Of a stretch of 64,000 nt of DNA, positions 12,685 to 44,411 are shown in pieces. The notes beneath the pieces were generated by a model. It was given only the letters and a program-made list of their open reading frames with translations. It was not told the origin of the DNA and did no database searches. The translations under genes and the position numbers were made by a program. The stretch is from Protonemura montana (lineage: Eukaryota > Arthropoda > Insecta > Plecoptera > Nemouridae), in assembly GCA_947568835.1 (NCBI GenBank), contig OX387605.1, positions 20,774,418-20,838,417 of the forward strand. Direction: 5' to 3'. How positions within the stretch are numbered: position 1 is the first letter of the stretch; every line of letters begins with the position of its first letter.

Positions 12685-14949
12685 TTATGCTTTCGTTGTT
12701 AATTTATCGCGCTGGTCAGGCCCCTTCACATTGCAGTGCCTGTCTTTGCTGATGGGCACCTCACATCGCCTGAACCGATGTTTATTGGCCTCCATAATCA
12801 TTGCCTTCACTTGGGCCTTATCGCTTATCGACATACAGGGCTCCGCTCCATTTCCTGGGACATCCAAACCTGGCTTCGAGGGGTCGTCAGACTCTTGCAT
12901 TGCAGGGCAGACCTTCTTGTGCAGAAATTGGCCAGCCTTTACTTTAGATTCATCAAGGGCTTCATTTTCTGAGCAAAGCGTGTTTTCCATCGAGAACAAT
13001 TCATCGTTGTATTCGCCGTAAGGATTTACTCGTTTGTACTTCTCAGCAAGTCGCTTGTTAAGCCTTTCCAATTTCTGCCACAGAATTTCTTCTTCCTTGG
13101 CAAGAGCATCTCGTCTGAGGCAGAGTTCTTCTACTAAATTGAAAGTAGCTTCCTTTACCTTGAACATTTCCCTGTTTTCACTGGATATCGTATGGAATTG
13201 TTCGTTGAGCACCTCAATCTCATTCTTAAGGTTTGTCTCGCGTTGGGCCAAAGCTTCCACTTGATCGCTCAACCCTTTCACTTCGGTGCAGAGTACTGCT
13301 TTGTCTTGGGACAATTTGTTCACCTCTTGCTGCAATGTATGTACAACGCCATTCAGAACAGAAGCACTATCATCTTTAAGGGCGCCATTCAAGCTCTTGT
13401 TTCCTAGAAAATACACACTTTTCTCAAACTTTTCATCATGTTTGGCCTGTTTCTGCTTTTGTTCTGCCTTTTTCAAGTCTGCTATACTTGGGAGTCTCTT
13501 GATAACGTTTGTCATCTTATTAATTGTCTCTCTTGTGTACGATTCTCGATTCAAGACGTTTCCGTTGGGTTCCGAGCACGACTTTAAAAACTGCTTCCTT
13601 GTTGGTGACCTGTCATTGGATTGGATCGCTTGATCAGGCACCGCGACGCCAGCATTAGAAGCATTCTGTTCAACCACCCAACTGGTACTGAACGCTCTCT
13701 TCACAGCTATGAAATGGATGGGACTATTCAGTAGCCCTTCTGTAAATTTGGATGTATTTGGCTGAAGACGTGGGTAAGGAGGTTGGTACGTGAAAACATC
13801 ATTAAACCCCAATTTATCTCTCAACATCTTTTCATCGAAAACCTTGATCGCCGGGTGAGACTTGTCGAGATTTTCTCTGAATGCAGCTGCCAGATTTTCT
13901 TGCGCTTTCATGAGTTCAACCACGTTGTTTCGGGGAAATGTGTTAAGCTCAGATTTTGGCGTGTAGTACAGGTCGTCAGGTTCCTCTTGCTTTATGTTTC
14001 GTTGGTACATCTTGCTTGCTGCAGAGCAGAGCGTCTGTGCCCGTTCCGCCGACCAAATACACAACATAGCAAGCAACAGCTTGATTTGCGAGAACTGTGA
14101 CAGCTCCGATGATTTCGTCCCTTCGTAGAGACCCCACCATTTACCCTTCTCGAGTGCCGGGAACCTGTTCATCCCGATCTGATGAAGGAAGTCGAGATCG
14201 GAGTCTGTCGCCGCGTTGTTGAACGCATCTGTGTGTGTCTGTGGGAAGCTGGGTTGATCATGCTGAGGCTCAACAGCAGCTGGAGTGTTGGGCGGTAAGA
14301 CGGTCTTTTCAGACATAAAATCATACTGTTTCACCGAAGGCATTACACAGACATTTTCTGCCTCCTGTCGCCGTGCAAGAAAACGCTCTTTTGCATTATC
14401 ACGAGTTGATTGGTGTCGGGTTTGGCTCTGAAAGGGTTTAGAAAAGGTTTCAAACTCTCGGACTACGCACATTTGTACATGGATACATGAGAAGCTACAA
14501 CTTCGTAAGTTTTTCAATTCAATTCAATTTGCCTATTTTAAATTGTAAAATATTTTACATGTTAAAACAGGCTTTAGAAATTGTCAATGTTAAAAATAGT
14601 ATGTCCTGCTATGGTGTTAGTTCTCCTGGTATTTTTTATTTATTACGGATATTCAGCTTAGGCATGAAGACATTACCCGGTGGCTGAAGCAAAATAAGTG
14701 GAGCTATCAATATCTTTGATATCTAATAACTAATATTTAACTCTAAAAGATTTTTAGAGCGGTGAAATGGTAGGATTACACCGGCTTACACGATGCACTT
14801 TTGAATGGGCACAAGTTCGACATTTATTGTTGAAAAACGTTACTTTGTGATAAGGGCTTGGTAAAAAAAATACTTACACCAGATGTTGGCAGCTTTGTAG
14901 AAAGTTTTTGGGAAATTTTGAGTCCTGACCATACTTTTAAGTTTGCCAT
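12685..14949 (-). CDS. Unrecognised 604-residue protein with a C-terminal coiled coil
   Basis: Two exons: 14949-14878 (24 codons, starting MANLKVWSGLK) and 14427-12685 (580 codons plus TAA), joined in phase 0. The intron has donor GTAAGT at 14877 and acceptor CCCTTTCAG before 14427. The frame is open 30 codons upstream of that acceptor, but the good splice pair and an in-phase ATG in the upstream exon favour the spliced start. Residues about 90-150 contain a conserved-looking segment (FLHQIGMNRFPALEKGKWWG, then a hydrophobic LLLAMLCIWSA helix). Residues about 400-520 form a charged heptad-type coiled coil (QQEVNKLSQDK through LEKLNKRL-like repeats). The tail is basic. No signal peptide or clear membrane anchor. 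A cytoskeletal, centrosomal or meiotic scaffold is possible, but I do not recognise the family. Confidence 0.75.
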
Positions 14950-18104: not shown

Positions 18105-21100
18105 ATGGCGACTGGTAGAGAAATAGTAACATTTCAATTAGGTCATTATTCCAATTTTATCGGTGCTCATTGGTGGAACATTCAGGTAAGGCTTAACTTT
18201 ATGGTACGACCATTCAACATAATAGAAAAGCAACGTTTGACCACAGTGAGGTTAGAAGCGGGCGGTCAATTGGAGGCTGTTGATCACTGCATTACAGCAT
18301 TCAATTGCTTTCTGGCCTGCACCAGATTGTTCATTAACTGCTTGTTGTTAGCTTTGCCCTTTTCTAAAGTTTAATGAGTGTACGCTTAACAATCTAGCTG
18401 CTCGCTTAAATTAAAGTTTTCTCCTGTGCTCTCACCAAAACACACACTCTCACCTGTAAAGTATGAGAATTTACCTTTGGTAGTGCGTTGTTCTGTGTGG
18501 TTCTTAATTGCTCTAAACATTGATCTCTGTTGTTAAGTTTTTTTCATATTATAGCAAAACTGCCCTAATAAATCATCATTTGGTAAGCGTCTGTTTTTAT
18601 AGCTCTTTCGGTACTTATTCTTGATATCTACACTTACAGGAGTCGAGTTTCCAATACAGTGGCGACAATCCATCTGAAATAAATCACGATATTCTCTTTA
18701 GAGAAGGTCAAACAAGCAGGGTAAGCTTTATTTATATATATTCACTGAAAAGCAAATTATAGGTTCTTTTACAAAAAACACTGTTCAAACACAGAAAATG
18801 CATGCAATAAACTTTTTTTTTTCCAGCACGAAGTGACATTTACTCCTCGCCTCCTGTTGTTAGATCTGAAAGGAAGCTTGAAGCACCTGTCTGAGAATGG
18901 AGAATTATATGATCGGCCAGAAGATTCAACATACAACTTAGTTGAATGGCCTGAAGAAAATTTAGAATTGCTGAAGGCTCCTACAGAAAATAAGAGCAAA
19001 TTCTTGGAAAACCTTGAAAATGAAGTTTCAAAGAGCTCCTCAGGTGATGCAGGTATCACACAATTTTCAAAAAAAATAAGTTAATTAAAAAAATTGTCAT
19101 ATAATTACATTTTATTTCTTTACCGGTGCCAATTTAAGCAAGATTTTACATGCAATTCCATGTTTTCATCAACCTTTCTCCCAAACAGTGCCAGATTCTG
19201 CCCTGGAGGAAGACATACGAGTGTGGTCAGACTTTCTGCGCACGAGATATCACCCTCGCACAGTTAATGTGGTCAACGAGTATGAACACGAGAGTGAAAC
19301 TGTTCCGTTCGACATGTTCAACTATGGTGCCGACTTGTGGAAAACCGATCCATACCAGGACACATTTGTCGATCTCATTAGAAACTACGCAGAAGAGTGT
19401 GACAATATTCAGGTGAGAGAAAGAAGATTTATTTATTCCTTCATTAAAAAAAATATATGTTAACTGTGGATGACACATAGCCTAGTTAACAATAATTTAC
19501 TATTAATTTAATAGTATGAAAGTGAGAAAATTAAGAATATTTACACTACCTTCTTAATACAATCATTGTGGCTTTTACTCGATTAAGTTATCGAAACTTC
19601 CTCTACTAGAAAATATCTTGTATTGGTCCCTATAATTAAGTTACTTGAGTAATGCTTTTGGGAACCTAGCAAAGTTACCGTACTACAAAAATGTCCTAGC
19701 TGTCTAAAATATTGTGTTACTGTACAGCGATGACATATAATATTTTATAGTGCTCTAAAATTACATGTACACAATTTATGCTGCCTATTGTCAATTCCTG
19801 ACCAACGATGTTCCTTCTAGGGATTTCACGTGCTCCATGACGGAACCAACGGGTTTGCAGGTTTGGGAAGCGGGACCCTTCAGCATCTCCGCGACGAATA
19901 CCAATCGAAGAACGTGCTTGCGTTTCCAGTGATACCAGCACCCTCAGCTAATTCCACGCCAATGCAAGACAGCATCAGGGCAGTGAACTTGGCACTGGCA
20001 TTCCAAAACCTGGCTGAAAACTCCTCACTTTTTGTTCCATTAAGTGTTGCCTCTTTGGGATGGAAATATTCGACAAAATCCACAACTCACCCATTTTTAA
20101 AGTACACCGTAAGTACCTACTTTGTATATACTATGACATAACAATATTTTTTAGACCCCATAGCCCTATTTTTGCAGGAGCCCTTTTTATACAAGAATTT
20201 TAGCCCTTACGTTTTTACTAGTTCATCCCCATATCCTTGCAAACTTAACCCATGTCAAAATCTTATAATGAATTTGCTAGTCCAGCATCTTAGTTTATTT
20301 GTCTAGTACTTATCTTAGTCAGAAATTATGTTTACCAAAAATTCTCATCCTGCAGGAGCAGCTACCATTCCACAGCAGCGCAGTGCTTGCGTCTGCGCTG
20401 GAAACGTTGACGATGCGTTATCGACTCCGTGCCGACCACTCTTCTCTCGGCGAGATGGTCGGCAGTCTGAGCTACCTCGGCCGAAGAGCAGCTGCTGCTA
20501 GCCTTGGCCTGCCATTCCCAATCAAGGACAAGGTGGGCACAAAATAGACAAACGTTATCCACCATTTTATGCCAGTTTTTTTTTTTTTTAACTATTTGCT
20601 TAATTTAGGCATAACTAACAATACCTAGTACCTAGTACCTAGTACCTAGTACCTAATGTCATTTCTTTATGTAAAATAAACTAATTGAATTTGTCAGTAC
20701 CAAACGGTTTGGCATGTTGGAAACACCGGTTCTCATTAGATCTACGAAGTTAGCTACACTGCGCTTGGTCAGGTATTGGATGGGTGACCATCATATACAT
20801 GACCAGTTCTGTTCGGAAGAGAGGTTGGAGGGATGAAAGTTAGTACAGCAACTTCACTCGCCTTGCTTATCAACCTCTCGACAGCATGGATTTGTGGAGG
20901 AATCCTGTTGTTCCCGTGTACTGTCCTTCGGAAGGGACGTTAAGCTGGTGGTTTCCTTGGTGCTCTTCGACATAGTAGGCTACGTGCCGGCACCGGGTTT
21001 CCCCTCCTCCCTTCCAGGCTAGGTTAAGTTCATCATCATCCTCATCATCATCCACTCATTCACCGACGCCATTAGACCAGTGCCGCATGGCCAGATGTCA

Positions 21101-26439: not shown

Positions 26440-26690
26440 CTTCCAGGAAGGTGCAACTCGAACAGCATGATTCCTCCACAAATCCATGCAGTCGAGTGTT
26501 TGATAAGCAAGGCTAATGAAGTTGCTGTACTAACTTTCATTCCTCCAACCCCTCTCCCGAACATAGCTGATCATGTGTGTGATGGTCACACATCCAATAC
26601 CTGACCCAGCGCAGTGTTGCTTAACGTCAGTGATCTCACGGGAACCGGTGTTTCCAGCACGCCAAACCGTTCGGTGTGACGATTCGAAAA
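26440..26690 (-). mobile_element. 5S-derived SINE, head and first half of body
   Basis: Minus-strand copy containing the body from ACAAATCCATGCAGTCGAG through CTCTCCCGAACA, then the head complement (CCAATACCTGACCCAGCGCA, GGGAACCGGTGTTTCCAGCA). The tail half is missing. The head passes without a break into repeat block X, so the SINE head and block X were copied together elsewhere. Confidence 0.85.
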
Positions 26691-29548: not shown

Positions 29549-31355
29549 TAACTGATCATGTGTATGATGGTCACCCATCCAATACCTGACCCAGCGCATT
29601 GTTGCTTAACGTCGGTGATCTCACGAGAACCGGTGTTTCCAGCACGCCAAACCGTTCGTTGTGACGATTCGAGAAGGGCTAATAAGCAATTGGACCCGCT
29701 GTGTGACTTGATTTGGTCAAGAACACTCACATCTAACAAATACTAACATAGTTAAAATTAATCTAATTAAACATCCGCAATTAAAGTACGAGAATTTGCA
29801 GTTCTTTAGCATCTGCATGCCAGGAAAACATTTGGTCTGTGATAGCAGCCGTGGACGCCATTGCTGTTATCACCTCGATCCACTTTGAAAACCGGTCAGC
29901 CAATGGGAGCCGAGCTTCAGTCGATCGATTGTACGAGGCGGGGTCGATCGAGCACGTGTTGTGACGTCACTTGAACAGCGATGCAGTAGGTTTCAGGCGA
30001 TACTCTTCTGTCGTCTACTCGCCTGGTACGAAGAGACAAATTTTCGCCTCGTTTTAGACGATTATTTCAGTTGAAATGTCATAGTTGGATTAACCGTACG
30101 TATAGGCAGTCCCGTAGCACTCACGCGTACCACGAGTTGCTTCAAAGTTTTCACAGGCAAACTAAATTTCCTAACAACGTCATTCTTTCCCAGCTACTTG
30201 ACACAATTTTATGAAATAAAGCTTTGAATTTCAGGCATAGGCAACGTCTCAAAATAGGACCGATCGGGAGATAAAAATATGTGATATTCTGTCTTTTGTT
30301 GCAAAACTTGTTGCAAACCTTTACAAGATACGATATTTTCTGCGTTGTAGTGCGATCTTACCAGCGCACGCAATGGCAGTGACAACGGACCGGAAGTTAA
30401 TATGCCTAATAAACCTTAGAGCCTTTACCATCAGCGAACTAAGGATCCGTATTTAAAATATGATGGCTGTGGATGGTACGCACGGTACCCACGTGTCGTG
30501 GCTCAATCTTGCTTGGCTATGGGAGAGGTACCCGTCACATAGAGATAACTCAGGCACTGCATATTTAAACCTAAATTTCATTTTTATTGCATAACAAATA
30601 GCAACATTACACTTACGACAAGCCTGACAATAACGAGCGTGCACACAACAATAACAAGCTTAGTTCATCCGCACACTGTCCATATTCTCTCCTCTTATCA
30701 CAACAGATTGCTCCTACCAAAGTGATCACATGCCAATATAAAAATATCTGTCTCTTCATACGTATCTCTGTAAAACACGGGTGTAAGGGTTTAACTGCAC
30801 TTATCAGCAATTTAGTCAGAGAACCCTAGCTCGGTCTTGACTCCCAAAGTAGACTGTGTTTCGAAGGACCAGTAGATTGCCAGAGGAACCTTGCTCGGTC
30901 TTAGCTCTCGGTCCCAGAGGCCTAGGCTACCGCATAGCCTAGCTCTCGACTCCAAATCTAGACTGTCACTCTTCAAAGGACAGTGCCAGTGGCCTATATA
31001 AACCTGACCGAGCCACGTTCGACATGTGCGTTTTAGGCCACTGGATAGCTTACCTCCTAGTTATTTCGACTTGGTCAGCAAGATCAAAGTCTACAGTTTA
31101 TCATTACTGCTATTGCACGCTCGGTTAAAAGTGTGCTTGTCATTACTTATACAACTTAAAAATGCTTATTCAAAAATACCAAAAAGCAAAGGAAATGAGA
31201 AGGCAACTTGACGCAAACCTCGTGACGCGCCACAATATCAACCGAGCAATGTCATACACAAAACCGAGTAAGCCCACCCAAAAATCTTATTTTGAGAGGT
31301 CAAGCAATTCTCAAAAAGAACTGCTCCAGTCGCTCGTTTCACACCTGTCTTACTG
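29549..31355 (+). repeat. Repeat block X, copy 2
   Basis: Collinear with copy 1 (26567-28371) and, up to 30361, with copy 3 (43592-44411). Begins with the 5S-head complement at 29549-29666. No intact coding domain. A weak 87-codon frame starts at 31162, but the matching copy 1 frame is not conserved, so it is not called. Confidence 0.85.
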
Positions 31356-34774: not shown

Positions 34775-36831
34775 GGGTCATTCCATGTCAATTCAACCAA
34801 TTTTTTGGGAAAATTGACCGTCACCTCTTAGAAATCGACCAAACTTGATAGGATGATGACCACATTATTTCTCTTGTTGACGTATTTTTTTGTTTGCCTC
34901 TGAGTCAAATGGTTCGCCCGGTACGGCCCCGAAACGGCGGTTCGGCACTGAATTTTGGGGTACACGCGTCTTTTTTCTTTCTCAAATTGCGCCGGCTGTA
35001 GATAAGATAGATTAATGAAAAAATTTTGTATGAAAGGTATTGAAATTTTGTTTCATAAAACATAAATTTCGTTTAAAAAAAAGTAAAAAATCCCCCCCTT
35101 CCCCCTTTTTATTTTTTCTACCCCTATTATCTTTTTAAATACTATTTTGATTTTCTTAAAAAATTCTATTTGATAGCTATAAGTATAAACTTAATTTTCT
35201 GAAAGTTTCAGAGTGGGACATCGAGGGAATTTTGAGATAAAAATTAAAAAGTATCGCCGTGTGAAAAAAAACGCATGTTTTTACATGTGTTTACGTGCAT
35301 ATGGGATAGTTCATACAAAATCAACACATCATTAAACCTGACCAACTTTTATATGAAATAAAAGTATGCTTAGGCATAAAGTGGACTTAGAACAGACTTT
35401 CACTATTTTTTTCAAAATTTTGTCCCGCATCATTCATGCGCAGTAGCAGTCCAAACTTGAGCACTTTTCAGTGTTTTGGTTCGCCTTTCAAGACGTTTGG
35501 GCTTCTAGCTAACGACCCGTTAATGATAACGAAAAAATAAAAACACTGATAGAAAGCTGAGAAAATTTAGGAAATGTCGAATTGAAAAAAAATCTTAACA
35601 ATATAAAAACTACCCTTAATGTACAAACATCCCCTAAATTGAGAATAAAAACAATTTACCCTACTTTTCACTTAACAAAAATTTAAGAAAACCTCACCAA
35701 AGAACTGGCCAAGCTGATCTAAAAGTTTCGTGACGACTAACGCGCCAGTTTTCGAGATACAATTTTTTTCTCGATTAAATATGTGTAGTAGGTAAATTAG
35801 CAAATCTCGTAAAATTGTGACATTCTGATTCGATTCAGAAATCGTGATAAAAAAATATCTGAAAAACTGTTGCGAGTTCCATCACGAAACTTTCAAATAA
35901 GCTTAACCAGTTCTTTGGTGATGTTTTTTTTAATTTTCGTCAGGTTCAAAGTATGGGGAATCTTTTTTCTTCTCAATTTAGGGGATGTTTGTACATTAAG
36001 GGTAGTTTTTATATTGTTAAGATTTTTTTTCAATTCGACATTTCCTAAATTTTCTCAGCTTTCTATCAGTGTTTTTATTTTTTCGTTATCATTAACGGGT
36101 CGTTAGCTAGAAGCCCAAACGTCTTGAAAGGCGAACCAAAACACTGAAAAGTGCTCAAGTTTGGACTGCTACTGCGCATGAATGATGCGGGACAAAATTT
36201 TGAAAAAAATAGTGAAAGTCTGTTCTAAGTCCACTTTATGCCTAAGCATACTTTTATTTCATATAAAAGTTGGTCAGGTTTAATGATGTGTTGATTTTGT
36301 ATGAACTATCCCATATGCACGTAAACACATGTAAAAACATGCGTTTTTTTTCACACGGCGATACTTTTTAATTTTTATCTCAAAATTCCCTCGATGTCCC
36401 ACTCTGAAACTTTCAGAAAATTAAGTTTATACTTATAGCTATCAAATAGAATTTTTTAAGAAAATCAAAATAGTATTTAAAAAGATAATAGGGGTAGAAA
36501 AAATAAAAAGGGGGAAGGGGGGGATTTTTTACTTTTTTTTAAACGAAATTTATGTTTTATGAAACAAAATTTCAATACCTTTCATACAAAATTTTTTCAT
36601 TAATCTATCTTATCTACAGCCGGCGCAATTTGAGAAAGAAAAAAGACGCGTGTACCTCAAAATTCAGTGCCGAACCGCCGTTTCGGGGCCGTACCGGGCG
36701 AACCATTTGACTCAGAGGCAAACAAAAAAATACGTCAACAAGAGAAATGATGTGGTCATCATCCTATCAAGTTTGGTCGATTTCTGAGAGGTGATGGTTT
36801 TTTGGTCGGTTGATTTGACATGGAATGACCC
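34775..36831. mobile_element. 2.06-kb long inverted-repeat (foldback-type) element
   Basis: Starts GGGTCATTCCATGTCAA and ends with its complement TTGACATGGAATGACCC. AAAA flanks both sides (34771-34774 and 36832-36835), possibly a 4-bp target-site duplication. Each arm is about 1 kb, and the arms meet around 35800 with only a short unpaired centre. The middle of each arm is almost perfectly complementary. The last 60 bp at the outer ends and the inner 100 bp or so are more diverged. No transposase frame is seen; the open frames are low-complexity. This structure is typical of foldback or long-TIR non-autonomous DNA transposons. A collapsed palindrome assembly artefact is less likely because the arms differ. 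Confidence 0.9.
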
Positions 36832-36869
36832 AAAAGGTACATGAAAGTGGAACGGAGGATAAACGGGGC

Positions 36870-36935
36870 CGGGTTCGTATCCCGCTTGGTGCACTATTTT
36901 TAACTAAGAATCAAACACCTACCAAGATTGTTTGA
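36870..36935 (+). repeat. Right-hand remnant of repeat block Y
   Basis: GGGTTCGTATCCCGCTTGG through ACCAAGATTGTT, matching the end of block Y at 29153 and 43199. With 33845-34150 it brackets the palindrome region. Confidence 0.75.
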
Positions 36936-37139
36936 AAATATCTTCGATGCTGCTGATTCTGATTCTGTGTTCGAAGTAGGTTATTAAATGTAAAATCCTT
37001 ATTAAATGTTAAAGCCTTTGTTAAAACCCTCTCTTATAGGAGCCGCTCTTGCAGTCGAGCGGTGAAGCCGTCTGGTCGATGTGGTGAGGGGTCCACGATC
37101 AAATCCCGACCAAGCGATAATTTAATATTTTTTTGTTAT

Positions 37140-37460
37140 CATCATCCGGGTTACCGACCGAAGTGCAGCATAAATTGATCGAGTACATTTGATATCCAAC
37201 AGAATGCGCTGGGGGTCACGGTGCGTCTTAACACGATTGCGTGTTCGGTGAAACTGTATAGATAAGAGTAATTAAGAAGACCGCGACCGTCCATCAGGCT
37301 TTGACTGGTGTTCCTCCTGTCAGCCTCTAAAGCTTGCATTCACGTTAGCGTGTTGCAAATGGTGAAAGCCCATATTTTGGAGTTGTAGAGTGCTTCTGCT
37401 CTGCTAGGTGTGGCGACCTAGTACCTCTGCACTGCTTGGTGTGGTGGCCGGGTTCTAGCT
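37140..37460 (-). repeat. Left member of an inverted repeat pair
   Basis: The reverse complement matches 38865-39180 in order: ACACCAAGCAGTGC, GGGCTTTCACCA, ATGCAAGC, GGAACxCCAGTC, TGTTGGATATCAAATGTAC and ATCGGTCGGTAACCCG-like. Overall divergence is moderate (roughly one quarter of positions by eye). It is either two inverted copies of one repeat or the ends of a 2-kb element. Confidence 0.75.
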
Positions 37461-43241: not shown

Positions 43242-44411
43242 TCACCTACCAAGATTGTTAAAGTATTGTCATGCAACTCTCGCCGGTCTTCGTAGCGTCC
43301 ATTCGGCGGCGAGTGAAGATCGCTCTCGTGCTCAGCGCCAGGGTGCAGAGGGTCGCTGGTTCGAAGCAGGTAAGTCACATGTGTGTAAAACTGCTGGATA
43401 TGTATTAATCTTTACAGAGAAAACTAACATCTCTTCTCGATGGTGTACCGTGATCCCCGCCAGCTGTTATTCTAGTATATGTTATTTCCCTTGGTATAGC
43501 AACGCGTCTCAGTGGCCGTGAGGTACGGCCACTTCTTCATGGGGACATTGCTTCAATGTCTCGAGTTCGAATCCTGCCCGATTCGATCATGTGTATAACT
43601 GATCATGTGTATGATGGTCATCCATCCAATACCTGACCCAGCGCATTGTTGCTTAACGTCGGTGATCTCACGAGAACCGGTGTTTCCAGCACGCCAAACC
43701 GTTCGTTGTGACGATTCGAGAAGGGCTTGTAAGCAATTGGACCCGCTGTGTGCCTTGATTTGGTCAAGAACACTCACATCTAACAAATGCTAACATAGTT
43801 AAAATTAATCTAATTAAACATCCGCAATTAAAGTACGAGAATTTGCAGTTCTTTAGCATCTGCATGCCAGAAAAAACATTTGGTCTGCGATAGCAGCCGT
43901 GGACGCCATTGCTGTTATCACCTCAATCCACTTCGAAAACCGGTCAGCCAATTAGAGCCGCGCTTCAGTCGATCGATTGTACGAGGCGGGGTCGATCGAG
44001 CACGTGTTGTGACGTCACTTGAACAGCGATGCAGTAGGTTTCAGGCGATACTCTTCTGTCGGCTACTCGCCTGGTACGAAGAGACAAATTTTCGCCTCGT
44101 TTTAGACGATTATTTCAGTTGAAACTTGTTATGGTTGGATTAACCGTACGTATAGGCAGTCCCGTGGCACTCACGCGTACCACGAGTTGCTTCAAAATTT
44201 TCACAGGCAAACTAAATTTCCTGACAAAGTAATCCGTTCCCAGCTACTTGACACAATTTTATGAAATATAGCTTTGAATTTTAGGCATAGGCAACGCCTC
44301 AAAATAGGACCGATCGGGAGATAAAAATATGTGATATTCTGACTTTTGTTGCAAAACTTGTTGCTAACCTTTACAAGATACGATATTTTCTGCGTTGTAG
44401 TGCGATCTTAC
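43242..44411 (+). repeat. Repeat blocks Z and X (truncated), copy 3
   Basis: Nearly identical to 29200-30361: the tRNA-like segment, then the 5S-head complement at 43600-43715, then the first 0.8 kb of X. X stops at GCGATCTTA, where copy 2 continues for another 1.26 kb, so a deletion has joined X directly to the next SINE. Confidence 0.85.

Follow-up and report, generated by a model that had tools for sequence, protein, structure and literature searches.

The locus raises the question of what a nearly perfect palindrome of 2 kb represents in an insect genome, and how its two halves have remained so alike. It could be a mobile element, the template of a functional hairpin RNA, or an artefact of the assembly. 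We analysed the 64-kb stretch of Protonemura montana DNA that contains it (C3:20774418-20838417, hereafter the window) and searched the genome, 258 Mb in 34 contigs, for related sequences. The palindrome is with high probability a non-autonomous, foldback-type cut-and-paste DNA transposon from a dispersed family, which we consider the best explanation of the observations as a whole.

A search of the window for inverted pairs of at least 60 nt, up to 6 kb apart, returned four, among which the palindrome is the longest, the runner-up measuring 162 nt. The first-pass annotation had described a 2.06-kb near-perfect palindrome with defined ends, AAAA on both sides, arms of about 1 kb and a short centre. 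Its boundaries proved right to the base, the bordering AAAA is exact on each side, and arm alignment gave two arms (34817-35766 and 35849-36798) of 950 nt each, 96% complementary and 82 nt apart (Table 1). With 1,900 of the 2,057 bp lying in the arms, inverted repeats make up nearly the whole element, which is a foldback-type architecture. The element terminates exactly in GGGTCATTCC and GGAATGACCC; its outermost zones (42 nt at the left, 33 nt at the right) have GGGTCATTCCATGTCAA in common and then diverge. Within the window, the 23-base end motif is present twice, and in 100 shuffles it never appeared. The element was also said to lack coding capacity, and its longest open reading frame indeed has 78 aa (ATG, GTG or TTG starts); an Rfam scan at gathering scores gave no match over the element. 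The 36 arm mismatches are unevenly distributed, as had been noted: 4 fall within the first 829 positions and 32 within the innermost 121, and the outer zones differ as well.

Table 1. Features of the palindromic element and of its surroundings (window positions, unless a contig is given)
Feature	Position	Strand	Remark
Palindromic element	34775-36831		2,057 bp
Left target-site duplication AAAA	34771..34774	.	single AAAA at empty sites
A-type terminal zone (GGGTCATTCCATGTCAATTCAACCAATTTTTTGGGAAAATTG)	34775..34816	+	conserved among A ends, unlike B ends
Left arm, homogenised part	34817..35645	+	825/829 identical to right arm
Left arm, inner non-homogenised part	35646..35766	+	32 mismatches to right arm
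Central spacer, 82 nt	35767..35848	.	core = spacer + inner arm parts
Right arm, 950 nt	35849..36798	-	inner ~121 nt = part of core
B-type terminal zone (GGGTCATTCCATGTCAAATCAACCGACCAAAAA read inward)	36799..36831	-	
Right target-site duplication AAAA	36832..36835	.	
Right flank, other dispersed repeat hit by the element	36832..37300	+	best copies elsewhere 96-98% identical
5S rRNA-like stretch	20700-20817	+	Rfam RF00001, 42-46 bits (range of all four)
5S rRNA-like stretch	26555-26675	-	Rfam RF00001
5S rRNA-like stretch	29549-29656	-	Rfam RF00001
5S rRNA-like stretch	43596-43703	-	Rfam RF00001
Further one-armed copy	C12:3913833		
Further one-armed copy	C13:16371178		
Further one-armed copy	C16:17070494		
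Further one-armed copy	C13:15640778		

Other genomic copies had been anticipated, and among the 100 matches listed (40 of 463 candidates scored) we found, besides the window copy, at least 12 that are nearly full-length, covering at least 2,033 of 2,057 bases at 95-97%. These 13 are spread over 11 contigs, four of them being segmental duplicates of one insertion: L004, L005, L007 and L008 have identical flanks, and the elements differ by 0-1 bases, so that one insertion must have been copied. All four lie within 0.3 Mb of a contig end (C6:987954, C5:20648456, C13:17716292 and C9:12894, respectively); the segmental duplication is recent and possibly subtelomeric.

When the flanks of the window copy were joined over a single AAAA, they matched at least 22 uninterrupted places elsewhere in the genome (43 matches listed, two of them the window's own flanks; 40 of 284 candidates scored). 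Two matches, C3:20493455-20493854 and C3:20294828-20295227, extend over all 400 bases at 99%, and most of the remaining ones cover about 148 bases across the junction. Uninterrupted flanks with one AAAA are empty sites, which identifies AAAA as a 4-bp target-site duplication (TSD). The alignments show a precise insertion, the element having entered another repeat with duplication of 4 bp of the target. The right flank of the window copy (36836-37300) includes a unit of 148 bp, at 150-297 of the joined flanks, that recurs at many places; with its tRNA-like GGGTTCGTATCCC, recognised by eye, it is perhaps a SINE.

The duplication length holds across the family. The loci fetched include 22 unique two-ended copies shorter than 2.5 kb. 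In 13 of them the 4-bp duplication is exact, in six it has one mismatch, in two it has two and in one it has three, and none has a duplication of 5 bp or more. Mis-paired flanks gave 0.92 exact duplications on average and five at most in 5,000 trials. The nine copies that lack an exact duplication count against the transposon explanation. The 13 exact cases comprise 12 different duplications (AAAA, TATG, CTTT, ATCT, AGAT, TATA, TTTT, ATGT, TTAT, ATTT, ATAT and TAAA). At 106 unique ends, C occupies position -5 in 60 and A or G position -6 in 85, and the duplicated 4 bp are rich in A/T, which describes a palindromic target preference near RC-WWWW-GY. A duplication of fixed length relative to the empty site and terminal inverted repeats (TIRs) common to dispersed copies characterise class II TIR elements, and the copies, the duplication and the empty sites together support the foldback or long-TIR mobile element that the first-pass annotation had suspected, the absence of copies and duplication having been named there as grounds for rejecting it. 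Inverted duplications are a known assembly fault in general, but it is barely credible that the palindrome is such an artefact, or a host palindrome from a local inverted duplication: the empty paralogous sites with one AAAA refute this unless they are themselves wrong, and both the further copies on other contigs and the end-specific termini of the two sides speak against it.

Incomplete copies were also observed. In one-armed copies (L010, L013, L014 and L016, and the further loci of Table 1), the match comprises one arm and the core and ends close to the beginning of the second arm, of which it includes 16-62 bases in the four loci read; this suggests breakage beside the palindrome centre. 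At C14:6.82-6.86 Mb, L021, L023 and L024 have, inside a B-type end, repeated units that are 97-100% alike; here an element fragment has been carried along in a local duplication, which further includes open reading frames chemoreceptor-like by eye, one of which was scanned and gave no Pfam match. The end motif had no exact match in viral contigs.

The two ends of the element are of unlike types, which we call A and B. The 24-base end motif with up to three mismatches occurs 303 times in the genome, against none for the reversed control, and at least 105 A-type ends (up to two mismatches in 32) and at least 108 B-type ends (up to three in 40) were recognised, again with no hit for reversed controls. 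Over the first 42 positions in the alignment of 14 copies described below, divergence is 0.033 among A ends and 0.017 among B ends, as opposed to 0.27 between A and B. Pooling 220 ends gave 37 adjacent facing pairs, three of them with one untyped end; all 34 fully typed pairs are A+B, a count that draws on 100 of the 105 A and 100 of the 108 B ends listed, includes four segmental duplicates of one insertion, leaves 146 ends unpaired and is blind to pairs in which one end has strongly diverged. L042, taken from other listings, has two clear B ends with flanks that differ in three of four bases, and L025 is B+B in appearance, its left end being decayed; A and B letters are mixed in L015 and in an end at C2:21305339. 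We infer that an unlike pair of ends is preferred or required for transposition.

Inward of these zones, the distinction between A and B disappears. We aligned both arms of 14 full-length copies, selected from 18 by leaving out the duplicates L005, L007 and L008 and the truncated L040. Between copies, A-A, B-B and A-B divergences at positions 43 to 842 are alike, about 0.05-0.11 depending on the zone, and within copies the A-B divergence is lower in eight of eight zones; inward of 842, the within-copy divergence is higher (0.178 and 0.367). Mean within-copy arm divergence is 0.042 compared with 0.070 for randomly re-paired arms, and none of 20,000 re-pairings was as low; the same holds for the ten younger copies (0.0196 compared with 0.0353; 0 of 20,000), with the qualification that re-pairing ignores kinship, as copies of one subfamily may share arms made alike in an ancestor. 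Own partners are not always closest: for 14 of the 28 arms, the most similar one lies in a different copy. Variants private to one copy are present in both arms in 50 cases and in one arm in 266; at 128 further sites, where at least two copies share a variant, it occupies both arms in 159 cells and a single arm in 223.

The core behaves differently. Sites diagnostic of A and B, defined on the ten younger copies, occur only at positions 18-55 and from 867 inward, and the core is oriented one way relative to the ends in nine copies and the other way in five (L033, L034, L038, L039 and L041). A crossover between the arms produces such a flip, so the flipped cores indicate that the arms recombine, although the five flipped copies, read among 14 related ones, need not represent five independent events. 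The border of the homogenised zone also shifts among copies. The longest tract is found in L035, in whose A arm the 17 diagnostic columns between 867 and 935 show the B allele and those from 942 towards the centre the A allele; in L036 and L001, the B alleles of the A arm are confined to the first three and the first two of these columns, respectively. Exchange of sequence between the arm interiors of about 800 bp is well supported. The uneven divergence has two causes: an end-specific outer zone conserved among copies, and an inner core that escapes homogenisation and flips.

When does the exchange take place? In four older copies (L037, L038, L039 and L041), 206 private changes are found in one arm and 26 in both, compared with 60 and 24 in the ten younger copies. 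The arms of L041 differ from each other by 0.134 and from those of other copies by 0.134-0.140; for L039, the values are 0.118 and 0.104-0.128. The arms of older copies have thus drifted apart, which suggests that exchange for the most part precedes or accompanies insertion, whether in the lineage that transposes or in the course of the jump, and that fixed copies decay. Continuous gene conversion after insertion, which would keep the arms alike in every copy independently of transposition, is unlikely: it would account for the core flips and shifting borders, which demonstrate that arms exchange sequence, but the arms of L041 and L039 are about as unlike each other as the arms of different copies. 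The window copy has four private variants in both arms and none in one arm, and its four arm differences are variants also present in other copies. That roughly 1,600 arm bases contain no private change confined to one arm is most simply explained by a fairly recent insertion.

The same variation bears on the hairpin. A functional long double-stranded RNA feeding small RNAs, its arms kept complementary by selection, appears very improbable. A very long hairpin can form, and 216 nt around the centre fold with z = -7.05, as any palindrome would; the excess of one-arm over two-arm changes in the older copies speaks against it, as do the one-arm private transitions, of which 68 preserve G-U pairing and 60 break it (p = 0.54). 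Nothing in the arm variation points to selection for a hairpin RNA. The first-pass annotation had offered homogenisation by gene conversion or a selected hairpin as causes of the arm identity; homogenisation is supported by the within-copy divergence and the flips, and the selected hairpin finds no support.

A transposon without coding capacity would depend on a transposase from elsewhere, and we found no transposase gene with these ends among the end pairs and interiors searched. The longest typed A+B pair spans 3,574 bp (C13:14676215-14679788) and lies beyond the interiors searched. Widely spaced end pairs (12 kb and 7 kb on C4, 6.9 kb on C14) gave no transposase in an open-reading-frame listing and in Pfam scans of selected frames and of three forward frames of one stretch; they contain a CAP-domain gene, an endonuclease VII-like fragment and host-like frames, and the pairs on C4 are themselves segmental duplicates, related to one another, whose left end has decayed. 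Forty further ends, followed inward for 600 bases after masking, revealed no transposase-like sequence common to the ends, the common matches being segmental duplicates and short, weak ones, and three of them followed 2-3 kb further showed no transposase among their open reading frames by eye. A degenerate end variant had no matches. A transposase gene with THAP and Mutator domains, which we take to be Kolobok-like, adjoins an end at C14:6915195; the element has inserted into this gene, which is therefore a target and not the partner. Separately, 747-aa frames with THAP and Mutator-like transposase domains are found at L054 (C4:23279941), L055 (C5:1542483) and C14:10105387, the domains having been scanned in L054 and the third locus judged by its equal score. 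Over 3.3 kb, L054 matches L055 at 99.97% identity, and the three loci, presumably Kolobok-like as well, represent a second, apparently recent DNA transposon in this genome.

The 4-bp duplication restricts the possible superfamilies. Kolobok elements duplicate TTAA. None of the 12 different duplications is TTAA, which excludes Kolobok and also piggyBac, whose target duplication is TTAA (PMC5199201). The P superfamily with Galileo is likewise excluded by its TSD of 7-8 bp, with the consensus GTATTAC in D. willistoni (PMC4168063). In Repbase, a non-autonomous element is classified by two traits, the length of its duplication and its first 11 bases (PMC4455052). Sola fits best, although this is as yet unproven, and we would give it somewhat less than an even chance. 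Sola elements have group-specific target preferences, and the preference near RC-WWWW-GY might be a counterpart. They are described with 4-bp TSDs and TIRs of 11-1124 bp (PMC10741241), a range into which the 950-nt arms with their terminal zones fall, and the TSD is here exact in 13 of 22 copies and longer in none. No DDD transposase was found with these ends in the search made, and the fit is one of TSD length and TIR length range. Another origin, in Academ, in a 4-bp subgroup of another superfamily or in an undescribed one, stands at slightly better than even: the termini were aligned to no named family and the searches made yielded no transposase, while the Sola fit in TSD and TIR length (PMC10741241) and the 3-bp TSD given for Academ (PMC5199201) argue against it. 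A text search of the literature for the end motif listed matches that are unrelated by title.

In behaviour, the closest analogue is Galileo of Drosophila, a foldback-like member of the P superfamily with long TIRs and many TIR-only copies. The TIRs of two intact copies, GalileoN-1 and -2, are more than 99% identical within a copy and differ by about 7% between copies (PMC2775673), so homogenised long arms are already known. Galileo ends are more conserved than the remainder (PMC4168063), and long TIRs have been proposed to draw in recombination and conversion (PMC3573991). A further likeness is the occurrence of chimeric copies whose duplications have been exchanged (PMC2775673; PMC4168063; PMC3573991). 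Unlike A and B ends and a core flipping between the arms have no Galileo counterpart in the accessible portions of these papers; as far as those portions extend, the present family might add pairing of unlike ends and a flipping core in a 4-bp element. MITEs resemble it in being non-autonomous, with inverted repeats and no coding capacity, but are usually under 800 bp (PMC5199201), whereas this element measures 2 kb and is almost wholly palindromic. Among other foldback elements (Drosophila FB, Tetris, Tm1) there is also a likeness. In FB, inverted repeats form most of the element, as they do here, but FB duplicates 9 bp rather than 4 and its arms are internally repetitive.

The window contains other features. 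The four 5S rRNA-like stretches (Table 1), of which two lie within or beside an inverted pair (20752-20913 and 26460-26621, 89%), probably derive from a 5S-derived SINE, presumably SINE3-like. A 612-aa stop-to-stop frame at 12685-14523 (-), coiled-coil-like by eye, had no Pfam match at E <= 0.01.

These observations might be combined in one mechanism. A transposase supplied in trans by another, putative element would bind the terminal ~40 bp and would need an unlike pair of ends. Most arm exchange would belong to the lineage that transposes or to the jump itself, for example through repair of breaks at the palindrome, and silent copies would decay arm by arm after insertion. The arms would then need only length and homology and no further function. 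More speculatively, and we would not expect it to hold, one arm might serve at each jump as template for the other, by way of a hairpin or of an intermediate in break repair of the palindrome, with the transposase enforcing A+B, so that the transposition cycle would be a built-in repair keeping arm length and identity in the active lineage.

For annotation, the genome gains a family whose ends, duplication length and target preference are described, and a palindrome of this kind is to be read as a recent insertion rather than an RNA gene. The copies provide an unusually clear record of half-to-half swapping and copying in a palindromic element of a known kind. The family serves as a natural record of how a near-perfect palindrome behaves in an animal genome, namely which stretches the requirements of transposition keep distinct, which are exchanged and when, and this record makes it testable whether the arms are homogenised at the jump or later.
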